From Terriglobia bacterium (GTDB lineage: Bacteria > Acidobacteriota > Terriglobia > Terriglobales > Acidobacteriaceae): a DNA stretch of 64,000 nt. Positions 14,284 through 19,458 of the stretch are shown here, piece after piece. Each line of letters starts with the position of its first letter. The stretch's first letter is position 1. The stretch spans positions 299,001-363,000 of the forward strand of contig JAIQFD010000004.1 of assembly GCA_020073495.1 (NCBI GenBank). Reading direction: 5' to 3'. The notes below the pieces were generated by a model, which saw nothing but the letters and a program-made list of their open reading frames with translations, made no database searches and was not told the DNA's origin. The translations under genes were made by a program, and so were the position numbers.

Positions 14284-15105
14284 CTAGTGGTCCACGATGG
14301 ACGATGCCGACGGCGCGACTCCGACCTCCGGGACCGACTCCAGCAGGGTCCGCGTGTAGGGGTGCCGCGGGAGGGTCGTGATCTGCTCGGCCGTGCCGAC
14401 TTCGACGATCTTCCCCTGGTTCATCACTGCGATCCGGGTCGAGATGTAGCGCACCAGCGGCATGGAATGCGAGATGAACAGGTAGGTGAGCCCGAACTCA
14501 TTCTGCAATCGCTTCATCAGGTTCAGGATCTGCGCGCCCACGCTCACGTCCAGCGCCGACACCGGCTCGTCGGCCACGATGAACCTGGGCCGCACCGCCA
14601 GCGCCCGCGCGATCCCGATCCGCTGTCTTTGCCCGCCCGAGAACTCGTGCGGGTAGCGCCCCAGCGCCGACTCGTCCAGCCCCACGGCGCGCATCAACTC
14701 CGACGCCCGGCTGCGCTGCGCCGACGGCGACAAGCCGTCGTGGATCACTACCGGCTCGGTCACGATCTCTTCGATGTTCATGCGCGGGTCAAGCGAGCCG
14801 AAGGGATCCTGGAAGATGATCTGCATCTCCCGCCGGAGCGCCCGCAGCTCCGCCCCCGACGCCACCGTCACATCCCGGCCGTCGAATCCGACCCAGCCCG
14901 AGGTCGGCTCGATCAGGCGCAGCATCAGCCGTCCCAGCGTGCTCTTGCCGCAGCCCGATTCTCCAACCAGCCCCAGTATCTCGCCCGGCTCGATGTCCAG
15001 AGACACGCCGTCCACCGCGCGCACCTCGCCTTTCGCGCCCCCGCCGAACGCGGATTCGCTCAGCGGGAACACCTTCACCAGTGCGCGCACTTCAACCAGG
15101 TTCAC
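14284..15105 (-). CDS. ABC transporter ATP-binding protein, oligopeptide/dipeptide type (OppF/DppF-like)
   Basis: A 273-residue ATPase from GTG 15105. Walker [10 protein letters not shown], signature [16 protein letters not shown] and Walker [13 protein letters not shown] are intact, and the C-terminus has the Opp/Dpp extension [13 protein letters not shown]. The normal partners (permeases OppB/C, ATPase OppD, binding protein) are absent from this window, so it is an orphan here. It starts 36 bases after the PEGA-protein gene and may belong to that transcript. Confidence 0.9.
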
Positions 15106-15141
15106 GGCAGAATCCTACCGCAGCGGAAGCAGTTGGTGCGG

Positions 15142-16173
15142 CTACTTCTTCTTATTGGTGGCGATGGCCAGCAGCAGGTCGCCGGAGGCCCCCAGGCCGC
15201 GAAGGCGTTTCTCCAGGTCGGGGTTGAGTTCGAAGTCCACGCCTCGTTCCTGCACCAGCGACGCCACCCGCTTGGGCGACATCTTTCCCTGCAGCATCTC
15301 GGCCACATCGCCGGCGGTGAATGGCGGCGGCCCGGCCGTCTCCAGTTTGGCCGTCACTTCCAGGTTCTTGCCCGAAACCAGGCGGACCTCCTGCTGGAAA
15401 TCTTTGAAACCGGGGAGACTGATGCGCAGCTTGTAGGTGCCCGCCGGCAGTCGCAGCACCTCGCGCCCCTCGGCGCTGGTCATCCCCCGCGGCTCGTCGT
15501 TGATGTATACCTGCACGTCTCCTGGGTCGCTGGTGATCGTAATGCTCCCCCGCAGATCACGCGCGGGTTGTGGTTTTGAGCTGTCCGTCGGCGCTTGCTG
15601 GGCGCTTTGCCCGGAGGCCTGTGCCTGGGCCTCGGTTCCCAACCGGTGCACGTTCGCCAGCACCTTGTCGAAATTCTTGACGGACCGCACCAGGAATTCG
15701 GCACTCGCTCCCATCCGGAGCACGGCGCGCCGCTCGTCTCCCCGCTCCGTCAGCGGTTCCAGCGCGTATGTCGACGAGCCGGCAGTCAGCACCACCTTCC
15801 CTGGCAGTTTTTCAGCGGTGGCTCCATTGCGTGCCACATCGAAGCTCTCGCAGGACGTGCCGTGAAAATCCCCGCTGATCCGTGTCCGCGTGACGTACAC
15901 GTGCCCCTGGCACTGCTCCTGGGCCATGCTGAAGCCCAGGGCAGGCTCACCCTGCCGGGTGAAATACTCGATGTAGACGCCCCAGCCTTGATTGCCCCCG
16001 TACTCGAGCGCGGGATGTCCGTTATGGGTCACCGCCTTTGGCGGGTTCCCCATCGCGTGCATGCCCCCGCGCCCTCCCGGTCGGTTCGGCTGCTGGTTGG
16101 AAGATTGGTCCTGCGCGGCTGCGCTCAGCGCCGCAAGAAGGAACGCGATCGCGATCGTACGCTGCATTTTCAT
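15142..16173 (-). CDS. Exported PEGA-domain protein
   Basis: A 343-residue protein with a signal peptide (MKMQRTIAIAFLLAALSAAAQ) and a Gln/Asn/Gly/Arg-rich mature N-terminus. Residues about 205-275 form a PEGA domain (ITITSDPGDVQVYINDEPRG then LPAGTYKLRISLPGF), a beta-rich repeat common in surface and kinase-associated proteins. The C-terminal about 60 residues are helical with a basic end NKKK. ATG 16173 was chosen because the signal peptide starts there. It lies directly downstream of the kinase/TPR pair, and PEGA proteins often occur with Ser/Thr kinases. Confidence 0.82.
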   Translation of the reverse strand: MKMQRTIAIAFLLAALSAAAQDQSSNQQPNRPGGRGGMHAMGNPPKAVTHNGHPALEYGGNQGWGVYIEYFTRQGEPALGFSMAQEQCQGHVYVTRTRISGDFHGTSCESFDVARNGATAEKLPGKVVLTAGSSTYALEPLTERGDERRAVLRMGASAEFLVRSVKNFDKVLANVHRLGTEAQAQASGQSAQQAPTDSSKPQPARDLRGSITITSDPGDVQVYINDEPRGMTSAEGREVLRLPAGTYKLRISLPGFKDFQQEVRLVSGKNLEVTAKLETAGPPPFTAGDVAEMLQGKMSPKRVASLVQERGVDFELNPDLEKRLRGLGASGDLLLAIATNKKK

Positions 16174-16240
16174 GGCTTTGCCCGGAAGGCTGTTCCGGAG
16201 ATGGTAACGCATCTCTTCAAGAAAAGTTCTGCGCAGGCGG

Positions 16241-16759
16241 CTAATGTTTCCGCCCCAGCACTTGATCCTCGGTGCGCTTGGCCTGTTCCGCACGCTTCAA
16301 CTGTGCCTGTGCTGCCGCGTCGCCCGGCTCGAGTCCCAGCGCCTCGCGCAGATCGCGGATCGCGAGGTCGTACTCGCCACTGTCCAGATGCCGTCGACCG
16401 GTGGCGACCAGCTCCCGCACGCGACGGTCATGCGGAGCTTTGTGAGTGTCGGGTTGCGCCTCCGACGGCGCTACGGCTGGCGTCTCGACCTTTGGTGTCG
16501 ATGGTTGTGGCGCCGGGCGGGCCGCTTCCATCGGAGCTGGAGCACCTCCCGCGTTCGAGCTGCCCTGTGGTGCGCGCCTGCCCACAACGAAGTAGCCCCC
16601 CACCAGCGCTATCACCACCGCCACACCGACCAACACCCAAAGCCCGGCAGGCGACGTCTTCGCCGGAGCCGGGAGGTGCGCCGTCGCCACCGCGATCTGC
16701 GTGGGCTGAGTCAGCGAAGTAGCCGCTATCTGCGGTGCTGGATACTCGTCGGAGCCCAT
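16241..16759 (-). CDS. Single-pass membrane protein with C-terminal TPR-like segment
   Basis: A 172-residue protein whose ATG overlaps the kinase stop codon (ATGA), so it is probably translated by coupling. A cytoplasmic-type N-terminus (about 39 residues) leads into one TM helix at residues 40-59 (GLWVLVGVAVVIALVGGYFV), a Pro/Ala-rich linker, and a TPR-like helix pair near residues 118-160 (ATGRRHLDSGEYDLAIRDL). The order TM, Pro/Ala linker, single TPR copies the C-terminal half of the upstream kinase. No enzyme motif is present. Confidence 0.78.
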   Translation of the reverse strand: MGSDEYPAPQIAATSLTQPTQIAVATAHLPAPAKTSPAGLWVLVGVAVVIALVGGYFVVGRRAPQGSSNAGGAPAPMEAARPAPQPSTPKVETPAVAPSEAQPDTHKAPHDRRVRELVATGRRHLDSGEYDLAIRDLREALGLEPGDAAAQAQLKRAEQAKRTEDQVLGRKH

Positions 16760-18594
16760 CACTCGCGTCTGCGCCGCCAGCGGGGAACGTTCTGGTTCCC
16801 TTGTTGATCGCTTTGTTGGCTCTGCGCCTGGTCGCTCTGCAGGATCTGCTCCGACTGCTGCTGCCTTGCTCGCTTGCAGGCCTCGATACCGCGCTTGGCC
16901 CACTCATTGTTCGGATCCAGCTCCAGCGCAGAGCGGAAAGTGGCCATCGCCTGGCCATACTTGCCGTTGTCGTACTGCTGCTTCCCGATCGTCAGCAGAC
17001 GATTCACTCCCGGATCCATCCTCTGCTGCTGCGGCGCGGGCGCCGTTGCGCTCGCATCCATCGATGGCCTGTCCGGAGCAGACGTGTGCTGCTCCCGCTT
17101 TGACGCTGCCTCGGACGCGGGTTTCTCGTGCGCTGGACGCCGTGGCTTGTCCGGGTTTGCGGCTGCATTCTGCTGCGCCGGCGCCGCAGTCTGCTGGACC
17201 GCTGGCGTCGGCTCGGGTGCGGGTTCGGCAGGATTGACCACCTGCTGGACCACCGGCGCAGGGGCCGCGGCAGACGCCTTCTGCCGCTGGTGGGCGACTA
17301 CGGCCAGCCCACCCGCCACCAGGACGGCGACCACCAGCGGAACCAGCCAGCGCCGCCCGTCCGCTGCCGGCGGCGCCGCCCTCGGCGCTACTCGCGGTGC
17401 GGGAGCCGGTGTCTTTCGTGGCGGGGCGATCGCAACCGTCTCGTCCACCGGAACTGGCGCGTATTTCGGCGCCGCCGCCGTGGGCGAAAGCACCGCCGCC
17501 GCGACCGTCGGCGTATATGTCGGCGTCGAAGTGGCGCTCATCGGCATTGTGGCCGTGCTGTCCGGAACCGGAATGCTTGTCGCCGCCATGACCGTCGGCG
17601 TTATCACTTTCGTGGCGATGCCGGTCTGCGCGACCGCCTGTTTCTTCGCCGCCGCCAGCGCCTCCAGCATCTCGTTCGCGTTCTGAAACCGCTCCGCTGG
17701 ATCCTTCTCCAGCGCCTTCATCAGCACCTTTGAGATCGCGGGTGGGATGTTGAGGTCCGGACGCAGCAGATGCGGCGGCGGCGGCACGGTCTGCAGGTGG
17801 TGCATCAGCAGTCCCATCGCCGTATCGGACTCGAAGGGCTGCTTGCCGGTCAGCATTTCGTAGATCACCACACCCAGCGAGTAGAGGTCGGCGCGGCCAT
17901 CGATCTGGTCGCCGCTCCGGCCCATGGCCTGCTCCGGCGAGATGTATTGAGGCGTCCCGACCACCATCCCCGTTTGCGTCGCCGTATATCCGCCGCCCAC
18001 GTCCATCGCCCCTTCCCTTACCTTGGCGATACCGAAATCCAGGACTTTCACCAGGTCCTTGCCTGCCTGCGAGACCAACAGGATGTTGTCCGGCTTGATG
18101 TCTCGGTGCGTGATGCCCATCTGGTGCGCCGTCGCCAGCGCCGACGCCACCTGCCAGGTGACGTGCAGCGTGCGATCGAGCGGCAGCGGCCCGGAACTTT
18201 GGATCACCGACCGCAGGTCGCGTCCCCTCACGTATTCCATGACCATGAACAGCCGGCCATCTTCGGTGGTGTCCAGATCGTCCACCCGCACCGCGTTCGG
18301 GTGTTGCAGCTTGCGCGTGACCACCGCCTCGGTACGGAACCGCTTGATGAAGTTCGGGTCGTCCATCAGCTTGCTGCTGACGACCTTGATGGCCCGCTCC
18401 TCGTTGAAGGCCAGGTGCTTTACCCGGTAGACGGTGGCCATGCCGCCCGCGCCGATCTTCTCCATGATCTGGTACTTGTCGCGTATCGTCAGCCCGGGCA
18501 TCAGGTCCGACGCGACCCGCAGCACCGTCTGGTCCTTGGGACACGTGTTGAAGCCGGTGGGATACGTCGCGTTGCAAGTCTCGCAATACTTCAT
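16759..18594 (-). CDS. Membrane Ser/Thr protein kinase with Zn-ribbon and extracytoplasmic TPR
   Basis: A 611-residue Hanks-type kinase. A short N-terminal zinc-ribbon-like motif (Cys4, Cys7, Cys18) precedes the kinase domain, about residues 41-310: glycine loop IGAGGMATVY, Lys70 in AIK, HRDIKPDN with catalytic Asp165, DFG at 187-189 and activation segment GTPQYISPEQ. A 100-residue Pro/Ala/Thr-rich linker precedes a TM helix (416-435). The outer part ends with a TPR-like unit (about 525-578) and a Gln-rich basic tail. PASTA repeats are absent. The downstream TM-TPR gene overlaps by 1 base. Substrates are unknown. Confidence 0.93.
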   Translation of the reverse strand: MKYCETCNATYPTGFNTCPKDQTVLRVASDLMPGLTIRDKYQIMEKIGAGGMATVYRVKHLAFNEERAIKVVSSKLMDDPNFIKRFRTEAVVTRKLQHPNAVRVDDLDTTEDGRLFMVMEYVRGRDLRSVIQSSGPLPLDRTLHVTWQVASALATAHQMGITHRDIKPDNILLVSQAGKDLVKVLDFGIAKVREGAMDVGGGYTATQTGMVVGTPQYISPEQAMGRSGDQIDGRADLYSLGVVIYEMLTGKQPFESDTAMGLLMHHLQTVPPPPHLLRPDLNIPPAISKVLMKALEKDPAERFQNANEMLEALAAAKKQAVAQTGIATKVITPTVMAATSIPVPDSTATMPMSATSTPTYTPTVAAAVLSPTAAAPKYAPVPVDETVAIAPPRKTPAPAPRVAPRAAPPAADGRRWLVPLVVAVLVAGGLAVVAHQRQKASAAAPAPVVQQVVNPAEPAPEPTPAVQQTAAPAQQNAAANPDKPRRPAHEKPASEAASKREQHTSAPDRPSMDASATAPAPQQQRMDPGVNRLLTIGKQQYDNGKYGQAMATFRSALELDPNNEWAKRGIEACKRARQQQSEQILQSDQAQSQQSDQQGNQNVPRWRRRRE

Positions 18595-18743
18595 GTGCTT
18601 CGTTCCGGGGCGGAGTGTGCCGAATGTTATCGCGGAACAGAAGCCGCTGGGCGGGAAAATGTCTGGATGAGGTTACGAAGGAAATGCGGGGCCTTCGTCT
18701 GGCTGATAATTGCGCGCTCCGACTCGCAACCGCTGCGCTCTAC

Positions 18744-18752
18744 TGTTACAAT
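18744..18752 (+). promoter_or_regulatory. Putative extended -10 promoter for rpe-bamD
   Basis: TGTTACAAT gives a TGn-TACAAT extended -10, 31 bases before the rpe start, without a good -35. The same nine bases occur upstream of gyrB on the other strand. Confidence 0.35.
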
Positions 18753-18783
18753 TTGGGCACGTCTGTTTGCGAGAAGCCCCGAT

Positions 18784-19458
18784 TTGGTTGAGCTAGCGCC
18801 TTCGATACTTTCCGCCGATTTTGCGCGCTTGGGCGAGGAAGCCCAGGCTGCGGTGCAGGGTGGCGCCACCCTGCTGCACGTGGATGTGATGGACGGCCAC
18901 TTCGTGCCCAACATCACCATCGGCCCCCCAGTCGTGGCCTCGCTCCGCAAGGTGACCGATGTCCCGCTCGACGTTCACCTGATGATCGAGAACCCGGATC
19001 TCTTTATTCCGGGGTTTGTGGATGCAGGCGCCGACTGGATCTCGGTCCACCAGGAGGCATGCCGGCACCTGCACCGCACGCTCGATCTGATCCGCGTGCG
19101 CGGTGCTCGGGTTGGCGTCGTGATCAACCCGGCGACACCGGTGCAGACGCTCGGCGAGGTCCTCGACATGGTGGACTTCGTCCTCGTCATGTCGGTGAAC
19201 CCCGGATTCGGAGGGCAGAAATTCATCCCCGGATCGCTCGAGAAGATCCGCAAGCTGGTCACCATGCGCAACGCCCGGGGAGCGAACTTCCGCATCGAGG
19301 TCGATGGCGGCATCGGGTTGGATACGATCGCTGATGTTGTGCGCGCCGGGGCCGAGGTCCTGGTCGCCGGCAATGCCGTCTTCGGCAAAGGGAATGCCAC
19401 TGAGAATGCGCGCCGGTTGCTGAAGGCCGCCACTGAGGCTACGCTCCAACGTGTCTAG
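18784..19458 (+). CDS. rpe: Ribulose-phosphate 3-epimerase
   Basis: A 224-residue TIM-barrel metalloenzyme interconverting ribulose-5-phosphate and xylulose-5-phosphate in the pentose phosphate pathway. Family blocks are complete: LAPSILSADF at the N-terminus, HVDVMDGHFVPN with metal ligands, VHLMI, MSVNPGFGGQ and IEVDGGI. The start is TTG 18784, since homologs begin MVELAPSILS; the frame is open far upstream but that part lies opposite the kinase. It is followed 17 bases later by bamD. Confidence 0.94.
   Translation: MVELAPSILSADFARLGEEAQAAVQGGATLLHVDVMDGHFVPNITIGPPVVASLRKVTDVPLDVHLMIENPDLFIPGFVDAGADWISVHQEACRHLHRTLDLIRVRGARVGVVINPATPVQTLGEVLDMVDFVLVMSVNPGFGGQKFIPGSLEKIRKLVTMRNARGANFRIEVDGGIGLDTIADVVRAGAEVLVAGNAVFGKGNATENARRLLKAATEATLQRV

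Follow-up and report, generated by a model that had tools for sequence, protein, structure and literature searches.

The small gene that follows a Hanks-type Ser/Thr kinase gene (K1) in the analysed stretch of Terriglobia bacterium DNA (64,000 nucleotides; the window) is very probably, on sequence comparison, what is left of a second kinase, K2: the half that holds the membrane helix and the TPR, the catalytic domain having been lost. The loss probably came about by a deletion that joined the end of K1 to the linker of K2. To the explanation as a whole, in which the K2 remnant arose by deletion and now docks the protein of the adjoining PEGA-B gene, we assign a probability of about 0.6. The layout given in the initial annotation, a kinase, a kinase-less protein with one transmembrane (TM) helix and a TPR, and an exported PEGA protein, was borne out by the open reading frames, Pfam and an AlphaFold2 model. 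The 172-residue protein indeed begins within the kinase stop codon: in the sequence TGATG, the TGA of K1 and the ATG of the small gene have one base in common.

Table 1. Features of the rpe-dppF region, in window coordinates
Feature	Position	Strand	Basis and remarks
K1, Hanks-type Ser/Thr kinase, 611 aa	16762..18594, stop 16761-16759	(-)	Pfam; orthologue in congener G001 C186
Small gene, 172 aa	16241..16759	(-)	putative K2 remnant: linker, TM and TPR, no kinase domain
PEGA-B gene, 343 aa (ATG start assumed)	15142..16173	(-)	PEGA and C-terminal GVxF domain; partner gene of K2
dppF-like ABC ATPase	14284..15105	(-)	synteny marker; follows K2-PEGA-B in relatives
rpe	18785..19458	(+)	divergent synteny marker upstream of K1; presumably ribulose-phosphate 3-epimerase, named by sequence recognition
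Inferred deletion junction	16759..16768	(-)	comparison of window, G001 C186 and G091 C337; short match

A membrane kinase followed by a kinase-less TPR protein

The kinase domain of K1 (residues 41-310) matched PF00069 with E=9.4e-50, and its HRDIKPDN and DFG motifs are readable, as expected of a Hanks-type Ser/Thr kinase. The remainder consists of a zinc-ribbon-like N-terminus, a Pro/Ala linker, one TM helix near residues 414-435 and a single C-terminal TPR, for which the Pfam match is sub-threshold (PF13414, E=4e-5); the tail ends in PRWRRRRE and departs from the canonical tail. An orthologue in a congener (G001, contig C186) matches K1 at 72% over its whole length and at 87% in the kinase domain. 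Although the kinase domain is similar to that of the PknB/Stk1 PASTA kinases (NCBIfam NF033483, E=1e-97), K1 falls short of the cut-off score (328.6 against 450) and carries no PASTA domains. PknS of Xanthomonas citri (PMC13147305), a kinase with extracytoplasmic TPRs, has the same order of N-terminal kinase, one TM helix and C-terminal TPR as K1 and the presumed lost K2. In contrast to PknS, these kinases have one TPR unit rather than three, a zinc-ribbon-like N-terminus and a partner gene of the PEGA/GVxF type, and the small protein has no kinase domain at all.

The small protein comprises a Pro/Ala stretch, a TM helix (residues 37-60) and a TPR with capping helix (residues 108-168) that ends in the canonical tail AEQAKRTEDQVLGRKH. 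A single-sequence AlphaFold2 model placed helices at residues 108-127 and 130-143 and the cap at 148-168, with pLDDT mostly >90, and this predicted helix-turn-helix identifies the product as a TPR protein. Its best Pfam TPR match, TPR_14, was sub-threshold (E=0.002), and comparison with designed consensus TPR chains gave E=2e-9. No kinase domain was found either in the small protein or in its whole open frame, which sets it apart from Hanks-type kinases; the frame spans 220 codons, and its upstream part overlaps K1 in another reading frame.

The small protein corresponds to the C-terminal half of K2-type kinases

Among 250 genomes of the family, the best match to the small protein outside its own genome lay in a full-length kinase, K2 of G091 (contig C337), and took in its C-terminal half. 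The alignment covers small-protein residues 7-171 at 43% identity (E=1e-18 to 1e-27; blastp 100 bits), with 54% identity in the TPR, and begins at the juxtamembrane (V/M)GSx motif of K2. Three signatures are common to the small protein and K2-type kinases, namely (V/M)GSx at the first residue, YxVVGRR after the TM helix and an ending in VLGR..; K1 has none of them. The small protein is collinear with the C-terminal 170-210 residues of K2 from G091 C337 and G042 C27 and differs from these kinases in lacking the kinase domain (~320 residues) and the zinc-ribbon-like N-terminus. Its gene likewise precedes the PEGA-B and dppF genes, and homology and position together mark it as the C-terminal half of a K2-type kinase.

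In G091 C337, K2 is followed by a PEGA-B orthologue (46%, residues 1-342), dppF (75%) and, farther on, an rSAM gene (80%). The order kinase-PEGA-dppF-rSAM recurs in G042 and G107, with rpe on the far side in G042, as in the window. Because the genes after K2 of G091 stand in the same order as those after the small gene in the window, the small protein occupies the place of K2. The full arrangement in G091 reads PEGA-A tail, another kinase, K2, PEGA-B and dppF; it spans two contigs, with the second kinase and PEGA-A on C311 and an overlap (90% over 237 bp) between the end of C311 and the start of C337. Other arrangements are K-PEGA-A-PEGA-B-dppF in G002 and rpe-K-PEGA-A in G077. In G001, the sole congener compared, K1 lies in the middle of a 79-kb contig (C186) and is followed by dppF after about 10 bases, both the small gene and the PEGA gene being absent; an intact K1/K2 tandem was not seen in the genus, as represented by the window genome and G001. 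The rpe-dppF interval (window 15105-18785; equivalents L045, L048, L156, L159 and L185) is a hot spot for gain and loss of kinase/PEGA units.

No further free-standing orthologue of the small gene was found in the 250 family genomes or in a sample of 397 genomes of the order. Many matches within frames of 220-300 aa, considered as free-standing copies, were rejected as multi-TPR proteins of other families, and in the survey of retrieved loci those complete proteins that had the whole TPR tail but lacked a kinase domain were all of other architectures. The expectation that the small gene would accompany the kinase in relatives therefore failed in both the family and the order samples, and in G001 K1 is kept while the small gene and the PEGA gene are both missing. 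As the small gene is absent beside the kinase in relatives, an obligate role of its product in tuning K1 is unlikely.

Weighing a copy of K1, a relic and an artefact

The initial annotation had taken the small protein for a copy of the neighbouring kinase's own half; that is, a partial tandem duplication of the 3' half of K1, retained as a subunit without a kinase domain that would form hetero-oligomers with K1 and tune its activity. The C-terminal half of K1 and the small protein are alike in layout, the gene overlap suggests coupled translation, and TM-TPR halves are plausible for oligomerisation; activation of the Xanthomonas kinase PknS is influenced by its periplasmic TPR region (PMC13147305). 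Nonetheless, the likeness of the window's two sensor halves, though genuine, is low, at 24-29% identity as against 43-54% between the small protein and K2, the K2 signatures and tail of the small protein are not found in K1, and the congener retains K1 without the small gene. In a tree of C-terminal halves the small protein joined K2 of G091 C337, albeit with support that is not strong (78/80), and an AU test rejected a sister relation to the K1 half of the window (p=1.6e-5). The test did not reject a deeper grouping in which the small protein falls with K1 of both congeners (p=0.13); given this and the fork of only 78/80, an older partial duplication would be compatible with the tree taken alone. 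The kinase-domain tree paired the two G091 kinases (93/96) and left the placement of K1 unsettled, so that by itself it cannot date the K1/K2 split. Overall, we regard this model, a duplicated K1 half that tunes K1, as improbable.

Descent from K2 leaves room for a non-functional relic, a K2 tail left by the accident of deletion and drifting toward loss as in the congener. Such a relic would fit a gene seen in one genome only and absent from G001, a comparable stop-free frame has a chance of about 4% in dinucleotide-model sequences, and no strong ribosome-binding site is evident before the ATG. The condition of the protein argues the other way. Against a TPR-end profile of full-length kinases, on which intact kinases ranged from 49.8 to 86.6 bits when left out one at a time, the small protein scored 71.5 bits, above the 49.8 bits of K1 itself; the TPR similarity claimed at the outset thus withstands profile comparison, and by this measure the TPR is intact, with no degradation. 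In addition, the frame is undamaged, the branch length of the small protein in the C-half tree falls within the range of the other sequences, and PEGA-B has been kept beside the gene. A mere relic is accordingly somewhat unlikely, though a serious contender. An error of assembly or gene calling, by which a frameshift or misassembly split one longer kinase, is barely credible: the stop/start overlap does look like a classic frameshift, but K1 is whole, has a TM helix and TPR of its own and matches its orthologue from end to end, the 220-codon frame of the small gene holds no kinase domain upstream, and the genome is assembled in 8 contigs at 100% completeness.

A putative deletion junction and a proposed history of the locus

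The putative junction lies where the two genes meet. DNA homologous to K1 of the congener runs to about position 16767 (...GGCGGCGCAGAC), ending where the small gene starts; the bases from about 16768 on, ACGCGAGTGATGGGCTC, are similar to the TQVMGS codons of K2 in G091 (ACGCAGGTCATGGGTTC). The stop codon of K1 and the ATG of the small gene would then both probably derive from the V-M codons of K2. As the match is short, about 17 bases, we infer this reading of the junction rather than observe it.

Our preferred explanation, descent from K2 by deletion, suggests a history in which units of a TM-TPR kinase and its PEGA/GVxF partner duplicate and are lost at the rpe-dppF locus. In the window lineage, K2 would formerly have lain between K1 and PEGA-B. 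A deletion would then have brought the final K1 codons up against the juxtamembrane linker of K2, taking out the K2 kinase domain and anything between, and would have left the TM and TPR half of K2 as a gene that starts at an internal Met and overlaps the new stop of K1. The TPR with its conserved basic tail may serve as an extracytoplasmic docking module for the GVxF partner encoded next door. If so, the remnant would anchor PEGA-B to the membrane in the cell envelope, with its translation coupled to that of K1. Docking of the neighbouring PEGA/GVxF protein at the membrane is put forward tentatively, as a prediction from gene pairing. The remnant may relay the state of PEGA-B to K1 through mixed TM/TPR dimers, or may merely hold or compete for PEGA-B. 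Tuning of K1, or hetero-oligomers with it, is possible because TM-TPR halves may mix and the TPR region of PknS sets a precedent for an effect on activation. A receptor kinase stripped of its catalytic half, with its sensor half and partner gene kept, would illustrate a possible route to kinase-less adaptor proteins.

GVxF domains and TPR tails occur as neighbouring genes

The PEGA gene of the window matched PF08308 (E=2e-12), and its product has a signal peptide recognised by eye only. Its C-terminal end (residues about 285-342; window 15145-15320) carries a helical domain of ~58 residues with the pattern L..R..LV...GVdF.L..d.e.rLr..GAd..LL..I...K, here called GVxF. This domain has no Pfam match and is undescribed so far. 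A single-sequence AlphaFold2 model of PEGA-B was poor (mean pLDDT 50) and showed no more than the PEGA strands and four helices at the C-terminus. Of 250 genomes of the class, 63 had GVxF domains, one family reaching 24 copies per genome; further instances lie at G000:C2:554793 and G000:C3:461655.

Proteins that end in a single TPR followed by a basic tail (A..AK.tEEeiL.RRR) were encoded next to a GVxF gene in all 16 testable cases, as against none of 11 for TPR proteins without the tail. Thirteen of the 16 had first been retrieved without regard to the partner gene and the rest through it, and two more cases were cut by contig ends. The small gene and PEGA-B of the window form such a pair. 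Because the cases are related by descent, the association is indicative only. Within the earlier idea, an extracytoplasmic partnership of the PEGA protein with the TPR half has the strongest backing. The N-terminal parts of the TPR-tail proteins vary, being kinases with or without a BON domain, FecR/DUF6600 proteins or, in one protein, a part in which only the TPR was recognised. As these parts differ, the pairing seems not to depend on the kinase domain. Other families of the class have GVxF and TPRs combined in a single protein. In the literature searched, no paper was found that ties PEGA proteins to kinases of Acidobacteria.

The recurring pairing points to a candidate binding partner for the extracytoplasmic parts of many such kinases. 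More broadly, single-TPR-plus-basic-tail ends and exported GVxF domains could constitute a new extracytoplasmic coupling pair, shared by kinases, FecR/DUF6600 proteins and others in the class. In the window, a receptor half no longer linked to a catalytic domain of its own would then feed or starve the neighbouring kinase. We consider this wider reading speculative and rather unlikely.

Several loci show the modules in other settings. A FecR/DUF6600 protein recognised by Pfam on contig C3 of the window's own genome (L230:3251-7221) has the kinase-type TPR tail, followed by a GVxF gene; its C-terminal single TPR, basic tail and GVxF neighbour are those of the small protein, whereas its N-terminal part is unrelated. 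At L240, a locus of G180, a protein assigned to FecR/DUF6600 by sequence likeness also has the kinase-type TPR tail and is likewise followed by a GVxF gene, and the same TPR-tail/GVxF gene pair is present at L234 (G194). Two tandem membrane proteins of G046 (C94; L161:6370-8409) have a similar TPR at their end, without the basic tail. A second kinase-PEGA operon lies on contig C2 of the window's own genome (L044:6791-10098), and its kinase carries a BON domain between the TM helix and the TPR (PF04972, E=5e-13).
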